Source of the DNA: Chromatiaceae bacterium
GTDB lineage: Bacteria > Pseudomonadota > Gammaproteobacteria > Chromatiales > Chromatiaceae
Direction: 5' to 3'
Assembly (NCBI GenBank): GCA_027078745.1
Contig: JALWWO010000019.1
Span: 219,972 to 283,971 of the forward strand
Length of the DNA stretch: 64,000 bases
Shown here: one piece after another, positions 23,081 to 29,657 of the stretch
Numbering within the stretch: position 1 is the first letter of the stretch
How the letters are laid out: each line of letters begins with the position of its first letter
Position numbers and translations under genes: made by a program
The notes under the pieces: model-generated
Seen by the model: the letters and a program-made list of their open reading frames with translations, nothing else
What the model was told of the DNA's origin: nothing
Databases searched by the model: none

Positions 23081-23503
23081 TCAATGGTGGGTCCAACCGT
23101 TGGTCCAAGTACCATTGATCTTAGCTTCTTTCTTTCCTGTGGCATCGACTCGAAATCCCTGGATGAGGTCATCTGCCTGATCTCCCTGGGGGGTGGCTTC
23201 TATCGTGTAATTGGTGCTGTCCGCCGCGGTGATGGACACCTGATAATGGCCGTTTTCCGTGGGCAAATTGCTAGCAACGCTGTAATTGAGTACGGTTAGA
23301 TCGTTGGTATAGGTTGCGTTCTGGGCATAGTAGCGCTCTTCTCGCTGGGCGATTTCCATCAGCAGGTTTTGCGCTTCTGCACGGCGGCTCTTGCGCACCT
23401 GATCCACGTAGGAAGGATAGGCGATGGCAGCGAGGATACCCACGATGGCTACGGCAACCAACAGCTCGATGAGGCTGAATCCCTTGAATTTTCGTGCGTT
23501 CAT
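23081..23503 (-). CDS. pilE: Type IV minor pilin PilE-like
   Basis: This 140-aa class III prepilin has a short basic leader (MNARKFKG) and the cleavage/methylation site G-FSLIELLVAVAIVGILAA with Glu at mature position 5. The alpha1 helix continues to SYVDQVRKSRRAEAQ, a PilE-family feature. The mature C-terminus has no cysteine pair. It is downstream of pilY1 but separated from it by a strong terminator, so it should have its own promoter within 23504-23597. It converges on the DegS-like gene with a 32-bp gap. Confidence 0.9.
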   Translation of the reverse strand: MNARKFKGFSLIELLVAVAIVGILAAIAYPSYVDQVRKSRRAEAQNLLMEIAQREERYYAQNATYTNDLTVLNYSVASNLPTENGHYQVSITAADSTNYTIEATPQGDQADDLIQGFRVDATGKKEAKINGTWTNGWTHH

Positions 23504-23597: not shown

Positions 23598-26500
23598 TTA
23601 TTGGGGTAACACCTCCTCCCAGTAAAGGGCGCGGAAGCGGTCCGGCCAGGTAACGATCTTCTCCAACCCGCCGATGGCGACCACTACACCGCTGGGAGTG
23701 CTACCCGTTCCATTATTACCCGAATCCGCACCTCCATTATTAGAGTCTCCATTATTGCCATCATTAGCCGTGCCCGGGTAGATCACCACGGGTTCCGGCG
23801 GCAGTCCGGGCACATTGAGAGTCCGCGCCCGATCGTTCACATCCAGCGCATCCGCATTGCCGTCCATGGTGGCGAACAGGGCGGTGGCATCCAACAGGCT
23901 GACGGCATAGATGCTGCCATAGCCATCGATGGAACCCACCTTGCAAATGTCGCTGGGGGTGGTGGCATTGGTCACCGTATAGGTGGAGAAGAGGACTACA
24001 TAATCGTAGACGCCTGCCTTGGAGAACACTTTTTCCTTGGGATCCATATCGATATACCAGCCTTGCTTGGCATTCAACTCGGCTCGCGCCCGCTCTGCCT
24101 GTTCGATCAGAGCCGGCGGTGCGTCGTCGGCAACTTGGATCTCATTGCCGGTAGCATCGTAGAGATCACTTTCCGTCAAGGTCGTGTAAACGATATTCCC
24201 ATGGTCGTCCTCAGGCGGCCCGAAGACGGCATAGTCCTTGATCATGTAGAACCGATCCTGAACGGTAGAATCCGCCGGTTCTGGGATGAAACCGGAACCG
24301 ATGACGATGGCGAGATAGCGATTGCCCCCGATGGACACATAGGCCACAACCGGTGCATTGAAGAACCGCCGATTGTCTTCCGCACTGGTGCCCCCGTTGA
24401 GATCGGCGATGACTCCACCGGTGAGCGTGTCTTCTAGATCGATGCGCAGGATCCGGCCGCCCACATCCGCAGCATAGATCCGGTCGCTGATGCCGTCCGC
24501 ATTCACATCGATCACCGTGACGCTGGCGGGGATGGCATTGGTCATGCCGCTGATATTGAGATCGGCACCTGTATTAGAAATCCATTTCAGCCGTTGACCT
24601 GTATCCACGTTCACGATGTAGATAGCATTGCCCAGGGTGTCCGCCGTGCGCGCGCCGGTCACATCATCTTGCTGGAGATCATAGCCGCCCCCGAAGATCA
24701 GCACATCGGTTTCTATCCCGTTCACCTTGATCCGACCGATCTGGGGTGCGGACCAGGTTTGTCCCAGACGGGCGAAATCTCCGGTGCCTCCTTTGATCTC
24801 CCAGAGCAGTTTGGGTGCTGTGCGATCAGAGATGTCTAAAGCGTAGTAATTGTTGCCTCCTCGGCGCATCCCGAAGATGTAGTAAGCCTTTTCGCCCGTA
24901 TCGATGCGCCCGTTGTTTGCATTGCTGATGGTGCCGGCCCCATCGTCCCGATGGAAGAGCACGGCTGGGCCATCGATGCCATAGATGGGCGGGCCTGTCC
25001 AACTCTTATCTTCTCGGATCCGCTGCAGGTTGGGCAGCAGTTCCACCGGCATATAGCCCCAGAGTTCATGGCCCGTCTCCGCATCAAAGGCATGGACCAC
25101 GCCTTCGCTGGTGGGCAACAGAACGAGCTGCTCCTCATTCTCGTAGGTGGCTACCAAGGGCTTGGTGTGCAGGGGACCTCCCATTTCTTCTCGACCTGTG
25201 GAAACCCAGTTCAGCAGGTCAGTACGGGTGGTGTTGTCGCTGACGCCTAGCATAGCGGCCGTGATCTCGTTGTTGCTGGCGATCAAACGGTTGTCGGCGG
25301 CCGTGAGATCTCTGCTACTGCTGGTGCTGTGATAGGTATAGAGATTGCGCGTTCCCGTGAGCTGAGAGGCGGCACCCCCCTTCAGGGGATCCGCACCATC
25401 CACGATGGGGCTCCAGAGATCCTGGGCGGTATCCAGGAATTGATAGTCGCTATCCAACACGGGCACGCCCCCTGCTCCCTGGAGGACAACATTGTTATCC
25501 GCATCGAGCACGATGGTGTATTTCTTCAGGTTTCCGTTCCAGTACTCGCTGACCTGGGGTTGAAAGATGGGCACATAGATCTTGTCAGCGCTCACCACCG
25601 CATTGCTGGCATCCATGGGGATGGTAGGCGTGGTGTAGCTATAGTTCACCGTAGCGCCCGCCTCTGCCAGGATCGCGCTGAAGACATCGACAAGATCTTG
25701 GGCAGAATTTGCCGTATAGAAGCTTCCCCCGCCCTCTCTGGCAACGCTGTTCAAGAAGAGTTCTGGACCGCTGGTCGTATGGAAACCGATGGTATGGGTG
25801 ACGATGTTTTGAGTCCCTTGCCAGTCGTGGCCACCGGAATCCGTGCCATCGTCCGGGGTTGTGCGCAGGTCAGCATTGTAAGCCCAGCCAGAAATCTCTC
25901 GGGCGCACCGACCATCACTCCAACGGCTCTCACTGTCCCTTGCGCAAGTTTGCCCCCGATAGCTGGTCTGATCGTTCGTGTTGGGCCGCCCGTCGGAGAG
26001 CAACACGATGTGGTTGGGCTGGCACCAAAGCGAGATGGGGGATTGATAGGTTCGGTTACTGGCATCTGTGACGGAATCTTCAAACCAAGCCACCGCATCC
26101 TTCAATGCGTATACGGTAGGCGTCCAGCCGATGGGCTTAAGGGTATCCACCACATCCAGAAGCGCCTGGCGGGACGTGTCCGAGACGCTCACGAAGTCCG
26201 AATGGATCATGTTGACATAGTTTTTACTGCCAATCGGCGTCAGATTCGTGATCGTGGTGGTTTCTGTATGGCAGACATCTACGTCCTGACACACCTGATC
26301 GCAAGAATAGGTGCAGTTTGTATCGGTGTAATACCAGCAATAGTGGGACTCCCGCCACCAATCCGGGCATTGGTCCCCATTGTAGCAATCACCTGTGCAG
26401 GCGGTTTCATAGCCACAATCATGGGCATTTTTCCAATCATCTGGGCATTGGTCGTTGCTATCGCAATCCCCGATGCATTGTGTTACGGTTATTTCCTCAT

Positions 26501-27299
26501 AGTCGCAATCATGCTTCTTTTTCCAGCCACTGGGGCATTGATTGTTGGGATCGCAGTCCCCTACGCAAACCTTCTCTCGTTCATACCAACAATCATGGCC
26601 TTGCCTTCTCCACCAGGATGGACAGGTGTACCGGTCATTGTCGCTATCATAGTAGCAATCTCCCTTACATACCTTCTTTTTCTTGTATTTGCACTTATGC
26701 TTCTCCTTCCACCAATCCGGGCATTGATCCCCATTGTAGCAATCGCCTACGCATCGCGTGATAGTCTGGGTTTCTTCGTAACAATCGTGCGCATTTTTCC
26801 AATCATCCGGACATTGATTGTTGCTGTCACAATCGCCTACACAAACATCCTCATATTGGCAATCATGGCTGTTCTTCCAATCCTCTGGACACTGATTGTT
26901 GCTATCGCAATCCCCTCGGCATTCTGTCGTATCCACGCAGGTGGGATCACAGGGATAGGAACATTGAGTTTCCGTAGTGCAGACTACTCGGGTGAAGGTC
27001 TTGTTCGCATACCAAGTTGTGAAGCCCTGTATGGCCACGTTGACCCCATCGAGATCCGGATCACTTAAGATGGTAGTCATGGCTTCTTTGAGCTGGTCCA
27101 TGCGGTTGGTCGGCTGACCATCATAGTTGCTCATACTCCCGGATTCATCGAGGATGAACAGCACGTTGGGATTGACGGACTCCGTGCCTGGAGTCACATA
27201 AATCTCCATATCATCCGCCCAGATAGGTGGGCTAATAAATACAGCTAGCAACAGACCGAGCAGGATGCTCGGATAGGGTTTTCGGGTTCGCTTAAGCAT
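23598..27299 (-). CDS. pilY1: PilY1-like type IV pilus tip/assembly protein with Cys-repeat insertion
   Basis: This 1233-aa exported protein has a signal peptide (about residues 1-28, ending PPIWA). A VWA domain starts near residue 43 with the MIDAS motif LDESGSM; a second acidic site follows in LLSDGRPNT. Between the two lies an insertion of about 240 residues with seven cysteine-rich repeats. The C-terminal half is the PilY1/PilC beta-propeller with a calcium loop DVNADGISD. PilY1 proteins sit at the pilus tip and act in adhesion, retraction control and surface sensing. ATG 27299 is preceded by GGAGG; an upstream in-frame TTG (27314) lies inside that site. It is the last gene of fimT-pilVWX-pilY1. 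Confidence 0.94.
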   Translation of the reverse strand: MLKRTRKPYPSILLGLLLAVFISPPIWADDMEIYVTPGTESVNPNVLFILDESGSMSNYDGQPTNRMDQLKEAMTTILSDPDLDGVNVAIQGFTTWYANKTFTRVVCTTETQCSYPCDPTCVDTTECRGDCDSNNQCPEDWKNSHDCQYEDVCVGDCDSNNQCPDDWKNAHDCYEETQTITRCVGDCYNGDQCPDWWKEKHKCKYKKKKVCKGDCYYDSDNDRYTCPSWWRRQGHDCWYEREKVCVGDCDPNNQCPSGWKKKHDCDYEEITVTQCIGDCDSNDQCPDDWKNAHDCGYETACTGDCYNGDQCPDWWRESHYCWYYTDTNCTYSCDQVCQDVDVCHTETTTITNLTPIGSKNYVNMIHSDFVSVSDTSRQALLDVVDTLKPIGWTPTVYALKDAVAWFEDSVTDASNRTYQSPISLWCQPNHIVLLSDGRPNTNDQTSYRGQTCARDSESRWSDGRCAREISGWAYNADLRTTPDDGTDSGGHDWQGTQNIVTHTIGFHTTSGPELFLNSVAREGGGSFYTANSAQDLVDVFSAILAEAGATVNYSYTTPTIPMDASNAVVSADKIYVPIFQPQVSEYWNGNLKKYTIVLDADNNVVLQGAGGVPVLDSDYQFLDTAQDLWSPIVDGADPLKGGAASQLTGTRNLYTYHSTSSSRDLTAADNRLIASNNEITAAMLGVSDNTTRTDLLNWVSTGREEMGGPLHTKPLVATYENEEQLVLLPTSEGVVHAFDAETGHELWGYMPVELLPNLQRIREDKSWTGPPIYGIDGPAVLFHRDDGAGTISNANNGRIDTGEKAYYIFGMRRGGNNYYALDISDRTAPKLLWEIKGGTGDFARLGQTWSAPQIGRIKVNGIETDVLIFGGGYDLQQDDVTGARTADTLGNAIYIVNVDTGQRLKWISNTGADLNISGMTNAIPASVTVIDVNADGISDRIYAADVGGRILRIDLEDTLTGGVIADLNGGTSAEDNRRFFNAPVVAYVSIGGNRYLAIVIGSGFIPEPADSTVQDRFYMIKDYAVFGPPEDDHGNIVYTTLTESDLYDATGNEIQVADDAPPALIEQAERARAELNAKQGWYIDMDPKEKVFSKAGVYDYVVLFSTYTVTNATTPSDICKVGSIDGYGSIYAVSLLDATALFATMDGNADALDVNDRARTLNVPGLPPEPVVIYPGTANDGNNGDSNNGGADSGNNGTGSTPSGVVVAIGGLEKIVTWPDRFRALYWEEVLPQ
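26337..26921 (-). repeat. Seven tandem Cys-rich repeats encoded within pilY1
   Basis: Seven units of about 24-34 residues follow the pattern C-x-G-D-C-x(3-9)-C-P-x-x-W-[KR]-x-x(1-2)-H-x-C, as in CVGDCDSNNQCPDDWKNAHD. Each has four cysteines and one invariant Trp. Spacers vary (for example YEETQTITR and KYKKKKV). Cys-rich flanks on both sides (CSYPCDPTC and CTYSCDQVC) extend the insertion to about 26268-26981. The repeats are not identical in sequence, so they are not a very recent expansion. Confidence 0.95.
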
Positions 27300-27310: not shown

Positions 27311-27844
27311 TCAACGGATTAACGCAATCCCCATGCGGTTGGTGGTTCGAGCAGTAGGCATCGGTTGCCCATTACTGACTTTGCAATTGTCATCAGCGGT
27401 GTCTGCAGTTTTCGTACGTACGCAACCCGTGGCATCTGCCTGATAGACATAGCTAGTCGAATTGAGCTGGAAGCCGGAAATGAGCAAATTATTGCTCGTC
27501 CCCAGATATTCCACTTTTAGATCCGAAAAGACATCCGGTTGATCTGTACCACCTGACGCTTGGAAATAACCGGCATGTTCCCGCACAGCTCCTGGCGCCA
27601 GGGCAGCGGGTGCCACATCACTAGGAGATGCATTCATCATCTCCATCAAGGCGCTTTCCGCCGCCTGGAAACTCTGCTGCTTATGCTGGTAATTAGCGGC
27701 CATGCGAGTGCCCTGGCTGCTGCTGCGCATGGCAGTGACGCCGAGCAGGGTCATGACCACCAACAGGATCATGCCCGTAATCAGGGCGATGCCCCTTTGG
27801 GCAGCTGGCCTGGATCGGGATCGGTCAGGGAAAAGGGTATTCAT
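27311..27844 (-). CDS. pilX: Type IV minor pilin PilX-like
   Basis: This 177-aa protein has a prepilin leader ending QRG followed by IALITGMILLVVMTLLGVTA. Mature position 5 is Thr, not Glu, as in many PilX proteins. The soluble part begins NYQHKQQSFQAAESALMEM, the typical PilX helix. It is thought to be part of the initiating tip complex with PilV, PilW and PilY1. The ATG at 27844 lies 4 nt after the pilW stop, and pilY1 starts 11 nt after its own stop. Confidence 0.9.
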   Translation of the reverse strand: MNTLFPDRSRSRPAAQRGIALITGMILLVVMTLLGVTAMRSSSQGTRMAANYQHKQQSFQAAESALMEMMNASPSDVAPAALAPGAVREHAGYFQASGGTDQPDVFSDLKVEYLGTSNNLLISGFQLNSTSYVYQADATGCVRTKTADTADDNCKVSNGQPMPTARTTNRMGIALIR

Positions 27845-27848
27845 TTTT

Positions 27849-28589
27849 CTACCGCTCTGTAATGGTGAGATTCCGCAACGGAATGGTTGTAGTGATCGTC
27901 CGGTATAATCGGCTGTCATCAGCAATCGTGAAGGTTTGATCTAAGACGGGCAATTGGGTACCCGTAGGCATGAGCTTGCGGGCGGATTGAGGGATCTTGA
28001 ATTCTCCCGAACTGACGACTAAACCGATGCGCAGGGAAACCACCTTATCCCACACGCCCTCCGCATTCACTTGGTCAGCAGAAATATAGCGGTTTGCATA
28101 GTCATCACTGTCATCATTTACCCCGTAAAGCACCTGCATCGCTTCGATACCGGAAACCAAGGGCTCTTTTGTGGAACTGTTCCCATCAATCATACATTTC
28201 AGTGCCCGATTGCCCTGGCTATCGTTTTCGACGAAGAAAGTCTGTTGGCTTTTGCTAGTGACTGGATTACCTTGGCAATCATAACCCCCTGCATAGACAA
28301 CGGTAATGATGTCTCCACCCGCGCTACAGTCATTGCAGAGCACATTGTTTCCATAGGTGCCAAAGGGAGATTCGTTGGCCAGCAGTCCCCGGCCCGTCAT
28401 GAAGAGGGCACGGCGCAAATCATCGATCGCGAATCGCGCGTTCTCCGATGCGGCGGCCAGAGCGGTTTGATAATTAAAGGTGTCCTTGCTGCTGAGATAG
28501 ACGCTGAGCACGCCCGCGAGCAGGAAAAGGGAAATAGCCAGAGCCACCAGGATACTGACGATGGTATAACCTCGATGTTTTCGGACCAT
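27849..28589 (-). CDS. pilW: Type IV minor pilin PilW-like
   Basis: This 246-aa prepilin has the leader MVRKHRG and a hydrophobic helix YTIVSILVALAISLFLLAGV. Mature position 5 is Ser where most PilW proteins have Glu. The region NARFAIDDLRRALFMTGRG is typical of PilW. Four cysteines in the soluble domain could form disulfides. The gene is third in the pilin operon. Confidence 0.88.
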   Translation of the reverse strand: MVRKHRGYTIVSILVALAISLFLLAGVLSVYLSSKDTFNYQTALAAASENARFAIDDLRRALFMTGRGLLANESPFGTYGNNVLCNDCSAGGDIITVVYAGGYDCQGNPVTSKSQQTFFVENDSQGNRALKCMIDGNSSTKEPLVSGIEAMQVLYGVNDDSDDYANRYISADQVNAEGVWDKVVSLRIGLVVSSGEFKIPQSARKLMPTGTQLPVLDQTFTIADDSRLYRTITTTIPLRNLTITER

Positions 28590-28602: not shown

Positions 28603-29145
28603 CTAGTTTTCGGAAAAACCCAGCACCACAGGCATGACTAACTGGGATCTCTGATTGGTGCTCTGCTGCGCATCCGCATTGGTCTGCCAGCTGATCGTGA
28701 TGATGGTTTCAGAACCCACGGAACAGGGATCGCTATCCCCGGTATCTGCATCCGTGCAAGTGATCGAAAGAGTACCGTTGGGCAATAAGTCTGTGATCCC
28801 ATTGACACAACTCGCTTGATAGAGATCGAAAGCAGCCATTTGTGCCGTGGTGCAGCTGAAACTCGATGAAACGCCCATACAGGAAGTCGGCGGCGCGCTG
28901 CAATCCCAAGTGGCATTGGTAAGGTAATTCCCCTCATAAACTCCCCCGAGATTGGCTCGCATTCGATCTGCCAATTCCGAGGCTTTGATACTGGCAATGG
29001 CCCGATAGTTGGCACTGTTCGAGGCTTTGAGCGCGCTGAGCTGCATCCCAGCGATGCCCAGCAGACCTACCGAAAGCACCACCAGGGCAATCATGCTCTC
29101 CATGAGGGAAAGGCCTTTTTGGTTAGGAAATTGGATGGGTTTCAT
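28603..29145 (-). CDS. pilV: Type IV minor pilin PilV-like
   Basis: This 180-aa prepilin has the leader MKPIQFPNQKG, then LSLMESMIALVVLSVGLLG with Glu at position 5, and the PilV-type helix GMQLSALKASNSANYRA. Several cysteines lie in the soluble domain. Its ATG overlaps the fimT stop by 4 nt. It is a minor pilin of the priming complex. Confidence 0.92.
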   Translation of the reverse strand: MKPIQFPNQKGLSLMESMIALVVLSVGLLGIAGMQLSALKASNSANYRAIASIKASELADRMRANLGGVYEGNYLTNATWDCSAPPTSCMGVSSSFSCTTAQMAAFDLYQASCVNGITDLLPNGTLSITCTDADTGDSDPCSVGSETIITISWQTNADAQQSTNQRSQLVMPVVLGFSEN

Positions 29146-29657
29146 GATTGAATCCTGGGTCTGCCCGTGCTAGAGATGATGAGCTGATGGGTTTTATCTG
29201 CTGCGGTGATAGTTAGAGTACCGTTCTGTAGTGAACCATCGATCTTCCGAGAACGGCCTGTAGAGACATAGGAAATATAGTCCGCTACTGGCCTATTACC
29301 CGTGATGGTAACACCTTGCAAGGCCTCGTGTACCGAGAAGATGGGCTCTCCCGTATCCACTTGAGCATTGTTGTTCGGATCCAAAAAGACAATCCAACCC
29401 TGTTCCCAACCGCCGCTCGTAGTGCAGCGGCTCAGGTCTTGAGACTTGCAGAGCACGACCCGCGCTTCCCGCTTCACCGCCTCGCTTCGGGCTAGGAGCA
29501 CATCGGCGAGGAGATCATTGCCCGCAGTAGCGACCCGATTGTCGTTGATCAGGTCCTGGAAACTAGGTACAGCGATGCTCAGGGCGATGGCTGCCACGGC
29601 GATGGTGATCAGCAACTCCAACAGGGTGAACCCTCGGTGCTGTGTACAGGATCTCAC
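29142..29657 (-). CDS. fimT: Type IV minor pilin FimT/GspH-like
   Basis: This 171-aa prepilin has the leader MRSCTQHRG and FTLLELLITIAVAAIALSIA with Glu at position 5. The GspH/FimT domain follows, with LARSEAVKREARVVLCKS and GWEQGWIVFLDPN. The start is GTG, supported by GGAGGAAG upstream. In naturally competent bacteria FimT can bind DNA at the pilus tip, but this is not shown for this protein. It is the first gene of the minor pilin operon. Confidence 0.92.
   Translation of the reverse strand: MRSCTQHRGFTLLELLITIAVAAIALSIAVPSFQDLINDNRVATAGNDLLADVLLARSEAVKREARVVLCKSQDLSRCTTSGGWEQGWIVFLDPNNNAQVDTGEPIFSVHEALQGVTITGNRPVADYISYVSTGRSRKIDGSLQNGTLTITAADKTHQLIISSTGRPRIQS

Follow-up and report, generated by a model that had tools for sequence, protein, structure and literature searches.

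The window analyzed here, a 64,000-nucleotide stretch of contig JALWWO010000019.1 (positions 219,972 to 283,971 of the forward strand; GenBank assembly GCA_027078745.1) from a Chromatiaceae bacterium, carries a pilY1 gene whose product, a predicted type IV pilus tip adhesin, has its VWA domain split by an insert of seven tandem cysteine-rich units between two cysteine-rich borders (Table 1). The protein matches the PilY1 propeller family PF05567 (T4P_PilY1) with 39.2 bits against a curated cut-off of 28.1 and the solved structure of Pseudomonas aeruginosa PilY1 (PDB 3hx6) with an E value of 5.7e-9. The gene lies in an intact minor pilin operon, fimT-pilV-pilW-pilX-pilY1-pilE, and a PilY1 locus of "Ca. 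Thiodiazotropha" (L032) has the identical gene order. An AGGAGG ribosome-binding site precedes the ATG at 27299, whereas the program-made list of open reading frames (ORFs) starts this frame at TTG 27314.

Table 1. Features of the pilY1 locus (positions of the window)
Feature	Position	Strand	Evidence or remark
pilY1 coding sequence	23598..27299	minus	1233 aa from ATG at 27299; ORF, PF05567, PDB 3hx6, ribosome-binding site
Signal-peptide-like N terminus MLKRTRKPYPSILLGLLLAVFISPPIWA	27216..27299	minus	judged by eye from translation
MIDAS motif DESGS of VWA	27135..27149	minus	VWA_2 E 9.3e-6
VWA strand β2 (VNVAIQGF), last conserved element ahead of insert	27021..27044	minus	
Cysteine-rich insert, 237 residues (36 Cys, 12 Trp, 7 His)	26271..26981	minus	protein residues 107-343
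Left border CTTETQCSYPCDPTCVDTTE, 4 Cys	26922..26981	minus	read from sequence
Unit 1 CRGDCDSNNQCPEDWKNSHDC	26859..26921	minus	
Unit 2 CVGDCDSNNQCPDDWKNAHDC	26781..26843	minus	
Unit 3 CVGDCYNGDQCPDWWKEKHKC	26691..26753	minus	
Unit 4 CKGDCYYDSDNDRYTCPSWWRRQGHDC, longer loop	26589..26669	minus	
Unit 5 CVGDCDPNNQCPSGWKKKHDC	26505..26567	minus	
Unit 6 CIGDCDSNDQCPDDWKNAHDC	26415..26477	minus	
Unit 7 CTGDCYNGDQCPDWWRESHYC	26337..26399	minus	
Right border, CTYSCDQVCQDVDVC at its end, 4 Cys	26271..26336	minus	read from sequence
VWA strand β3 (FVSVSD), first conserved element past insert	26178..26195	minus	aligns with EFKLID of L032
MIDAS threonine segment TPTVYA	26106..26123	minus	
MIDAS aspartate segment SDGRPN	25980..25997	minus	
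PilY1 β-propeller core with Ca-loop-like DVNADGISD	24432..25124	minus	matches 3hx6
pilX	27311..27925	minus	PF14341 E 1.7e-16
pilW	27849..28589	minus	PF16074 E 1.7e-26
pilV	28603..29145	minus	TIGR02523 E 2.1e-23, above cut-off
fimT/gspH-like minor pilin	29142..29657	minus	PF12019 E 5.8e-22
pilE/ComP-like minor pilin, downstream of pilY1	23081..23503	minus	PF16732 E 3.2e-24

The insert holds 36 of the 40 cysteines of the protein, leaving four for all the rest (hypergeometric P = 7e-23). Each unit spans about 21 residues with the pattern CxGDC..CPxxW..HxC, and nine positions (C1, G3, D4, C5, C11, P12, W15, H19, and C21) are invariant in all seven. An initial annotation, made from the DNA alone, had described a PilY1 whose VWA domain is split at 26268-26981 by about 240 residues with seven units, 28 unit cysteines, seven invariant tryptophans, and cysteine-rich borders. 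The protein assignment, the position, and the counts all agree with the present analysis, as do the borders, with four cysteines on each side. The apparent symmetry of the two borders (C[ST]YxCDxxCxDxxxC) is not significant, as 1665 of 5000 composition shuffles match equally well. Unit 1 reads CRGDC, which places an RGD between cysteines; units 2 to 7 have V, K, I, or T instead of the arginine, so this may be a coincidence. The longer loop of unit 4, YYDSDNDRYT, is rich in Asp and Asn and resembles calcium loops in composition.

The VWA domain around the insert retains a complete metal ion-dependent adhesion site (MIDAS), with DESGS, TPT, and SDG in the order DxSxS...T...D. The Pfam VWA_2 match scores 26.7 bits, just under the cut-off of 27, because the insert splits the domain. 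Outside the insert, the domain is 49% identical to that of the insert-free PilY1 L032, and the alignment of the two places the insert between strands β2 and β3. In a profile made from six relatives poor in inserts, the break comes at the identical point (model positions 68-75 of 275), and relatives that align on both flanks do not have the insert. In the canonical VWA topology, the β2-β3 hairpin lies on the MIDAS side of the domain, and the insert is predicted by this topology to lie there as well.

The units have diverged extensively at the DNA level while conserving their peptide motif. For the 21 unit pairs pooled, the proportion of synonymous differences (pS) is 0.91, which is saturated, and that of nonsynonymous differences (pN) is 0.25. 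Between units 2 and 6, pN is 0.04, again with saturated pS. The codons of the invariant residues vary, except for Trp, which has a single codon. Since nine residues are invariant despite saturated synonymous sites, the protein motif itself has been selected, and the unit peptide motif is under long-standing purifying selection, which excludes an origin of the array in recent slippage or in assembly. Saturation of the synonymous sites also explains why Tandem Repeats Finder reported no repeat in the DNA of the array. Units 3 and 7, with a synonymous divergence (dS) of 0.59, are the youngest duplicates, and the likeness of units 2-3 to units 6-7 suggests a block duplication.

A profile of the unit was scanned against 210 genomes of the family (the same genomes that make up the order search), 369 of the class, and 398 of the phylum, overlapping sets that come to roughly 950 Pseudomonadota genomes together, with metagenomes and most other phyla outside the scans. 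It matched the source genome only, with no second copy of the unit elsewhere in that genome; weak matches in G073, G094, G097, and G731 were rejected as fragments of unrelated or spurious frames. When short peptides, two of which came from the units, were searched for in 84,980 species genomes, only the PilY1 of Thiodiazotropha was returned. No family for the unit was found in Pfam (best E, 0.2) or NCBIfam, and no unit match was obtained in plasmids, phages, or viral contigs. The best match in PDB sequence profiles (E, 0.64), a transferrin receptor fragment resembling CPSDWK...C, is due to chance. The profile search, which the initial annotation had named as a check, thus found neither a known family in Pfam, NCBIfam, or PDB nor another genome with the unit among those scanned. 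As far as these searches reach, the repeat is a new module confined to a single lineage, and the modular pilus tip adhesin that bears it is of a kind already known.

A census of the family and class to which the source genome belongs yielded 147 further PilY1 open frames, not all of them complete. The CxGDC/CPxxW/HxC unit is found in none of these 147 proteins. Two of them, L075 (genome G012, another genus of the same family; residues about 100-666) and L076 (G034, another family; residues about 124-694), carry inserts of about 560 residues at the same β2-β3 hairpin. These inserts consist of repeats of about 140 residues (xxLRFxNVxIPxGAxI...) that are unrelated to the cysteine units and match no family in Pfam or PDB, and with no family matched the label of lectin was not applied to them. 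The occurrence of unrelated repeats at one hairpin indicates that the β2-β3 hairpin of the PilY1 VWA domain behaves as a putative port for the exchange of unrelated modules. Canonical PilY1 proteins, with an NFANWY-type α1 helix, have 124 to 210 extra residues with 0 to 6 cysteines in the β1-α1 loop, and this loop is short in the PilY1 studied here.

Cysteine-rich VWA domains are found in a few other members of the census. Among the 47 proteins with a measurable motif spacing (the source protein included; simple motif patterns were used, so that distances are approximate), the interval from the MIDAS to the DG motif contains at most 11 cysteines in 43; the remaining four, with 33 to 69, are the source protein, L088 (G094; 33 cysteines), L092 (G055; 39), and L090 (G176; 69). 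The cysteine-rich stretches of L088, L090, and L092 lie at the α3-β4 loop and are devoid of the unit, and homology of the L088 and L090 inserts to the units was rejected (BLASTP E, 4.3 and 0.94, respectively). The stretch of L088 is also enriched in Trp (odds ratio, 5.0), which may be convergent. Myxobacterial PilY1 clades reach medians of up to 41 cysteines per protein (clades 1.5-1.7; PMC13190605), and 7 of the 11 cysteines of P. aeruginosa PA14 PilY1 lie within the VWA domain (PMC8806160). Cysteine-containing inserts are thus a recurrent theme in PilY1 VWA domains, and the present case stands at one end of the range, distinct in both its repeat and its site. The initial claim that no such array is known in PilY1 accordingly stands for the repeat, which is undescribed, but not for cysteine-rich VWA inserts in general. 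Dense patches of CxxxC-spaced cysteines were also seen in L106 (residues 742-823) and L091 (about 648-715), at whose N termini no DxSxS-type VWA motif was seen; Pfam finds no VWA in L106.

Structure prediction of the insert, alone and within the VWA domain, had been proposed along with the initial annotation, and it was successful for the units themselves. A model of two units, built on an alignment of six overlapping unit pairs from the same array, reached a predicted local distance difference test (pLDDT) score of 88.5. It shows a single turn of helix at PxxW and has strands at residues 27-33 and 51-57. The first of these strands runs from the tail of the first unit into the CxG of the second and bridges the two. 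With a predicted template modeling (pTM) score of 0.45, the model leaves it uncertain how the two units are placed relative to each other. Foldseek found no structural neighbor of the two-unit model in PDB or among viral models (best E, 8.7). We infer two disulfides per unit.

The reading that we favor, at about even confidence, is that the array forms a rigid multivalent arm for ligand binding or specificity beside the MIDAS of the pilus tip adhesin. The β2-β3 hairpin of the VWA domain would have received seven tandem cysteine-clamped mini-domains. Each of them probably folds as a short hairpin that includes one turn of helix at CPxxW and is closed by two disulfides. Linker strands would continue from one unit into the next, and the array would project from the pilus tip as a stiff, acidic rod studded with Trp and His, adjoining the MIDAS and either binding ligand multivalently or setting specificity. 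A role in adhesion or ligand specificity is favored because unrelated modules are swapped at this one loop. The protein resembles canonical PilY1/PilC proteins (P. aeruginosa PA14 and Legionella) in its propeller, MIDAS-bearing VWA domain, minor pilin operon, and VWA cysteines, but the extra segment of the latter, with 0 to 6 cysteines, lies in β1-α1, whereas the seven-unit array lies in β2-β3. It shares with L088, L090, L092, and the myxobacterial proteins a VWA domain and tens of cysteines; the first three differ in having the insert at α3-β4 without the unit, and the myxobacterial proteins were compared by description only.

By analogy only, the β1-α1 and β2-β3 loops of the PilY1 VWA domain may correspond to the specificity-determining loops (SDLs) SDL1 and SDL2 of integrins, SDL2 being a disulfide-bonded loop by the MIDAS that contacts ligand. 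We take SDL2 to be the β2-β3 loop and thus equivalent to the position of the insert, although it is a short loop with no repeat array. The SDL loops of the integrin beta I domain have roles in ligand binding (PMC6889490). Inserted arms also flank the MIDAS in RrgA, GBS104, and Streptococcus sanguinis PilB (PMC7893114, PMC8179133), where they are believed to determine which ligand is bound; these arms belong to other protein families and are hairpins, sheets, and loops rather than tandem cysteine repeats. A modular design has been proposed for PilC/PilY1 proteins, of which 68 architectures were counted (PMC8179133). PilY1 determines the targets that type IV pili grip and the way in which cells sense a surface, and its N-terminal diversity is poorly mapped. 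What the present locus adds is an undescribed repeat and the β2-β3 hairpin as a candidate module exchange port, from which a testable rule would follow, namely, that the loops surrounding the MIDAS carry specificity, as in integrins.

Several results weigh against a rigid arm beside the MIDAS. The AlphaFold2 model of the whole VWA domain with its insert, built on a two-row alignment, has a pLDDT of 32 and is unusable, so that the position of the arm with respect to the MIDAS is deduced from topology. The unit is known from a single genome, which leaves no relative with which to compare the number of repeats. In the 97%-complete genome, neither DsbB (PF02600) nor VKOR (PF07884) was detected, with control genomes positive, and scanning 53% of the genome (1.16 Mb) for motifs revealed TlpA/thioredoxin-like frames but no CPHC-type DsbA. 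Disulfide formation is therefore not assured. The host may use a divergent oxidase, the gene may fall within the 3% that is missing, or the cysteines may be something other than conventional disulfides, either metal bound or free thiols.

The last of these options underlies a quite improbable explanation, in which the four cysteines and one histidine of each unit, invariant throughout, form a metal or free-thiol array touching sulfur, metals, or minerals. The source genome encodes DsrA (655 bits), by which the host is judged a sulfur oxidizer, as the initial annotation had it, and the lack of a detected DsbB or VKOR makes oxidized cysteines less certain. Secreted cysteine-rich repeats are usually oxidized, however, and Foldseek recognized no metal-site fold. 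Thiodiazotropha is a sulfur oxidizer, and because such sulfur oxidizers among the 210 family genomes have no unit, its presence is not accounted for by sulfur metabolism in itself. In a stronger version, more doubtful still, the units would be not simple disulfide knots but a new family of mini-domains, a thiol or metal-thiolate array at the pilus tip to which minerals, metals, or sulfur species bind. If the cysteines are not in disulfides, a new kind of pilus tip chemistry would be at hand.

Disulfide-rich tandem repeats are typical spacers, and the array could extend the tip protein passively, as a rigid spacer or a shield that resists proteases, and have no ligand of its own. The variable unit positions are mostly polar, and nonhomologous inserts of differing length at the same loop could all be spacers. 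We regard this as unlikely, though worth serious consideration: W15, H19, G3, D4, and P12 are invariant besides the cysteines, which is beyond the needs of disulfide scaffolding, and by topology the insert adjoins the MIDAS and is not at an interdomain position. It is rather improbable that the array is a force-responsive element, in which disulfides or the unfolding of units would tune surface sensing on pilus retraction. In PA14 PilY1, VWA residues Cys152 and Cys147 affect cyclic di-GMP and biofilm, and Cys152 also affects adhesion force (PMC8806160); tandem units, moreover, would extend stepwise. The PA14 VWA domain, however, has only 7 cysteines and no such units, and the present insert is a side loop with both ends at one hairpin, which need not be in the load path. 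An assembly or frameshift artefact would account for the unit being carried by one genome only, but it is hardly credible: the frame is continuous, the flanks align to orthologues, and the seven copies are spelt with different synonymous codons, which makes misassembly unlikely.

The insert also differs from the rest of the gene in composition, with a GC content of 0.48 versus 0.57 and 0.53 versus 0.68 at third codon positions (GC3). The gene uses TGT 12 times, always within the insert, and most codon preferences are otherwise similar. When a possible foreign origin was weighed on GC content and codon usage, the lower GC content was found to be in part an amino acid effect; searches of plasmids, phages, and viral contigs gave no match. 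On the plus strand, a 579-residue frame (25329-27068) lies antisense to most of the VWA domain and to the entire repeat array; it probably arises from the codon usage of the opposite strand.

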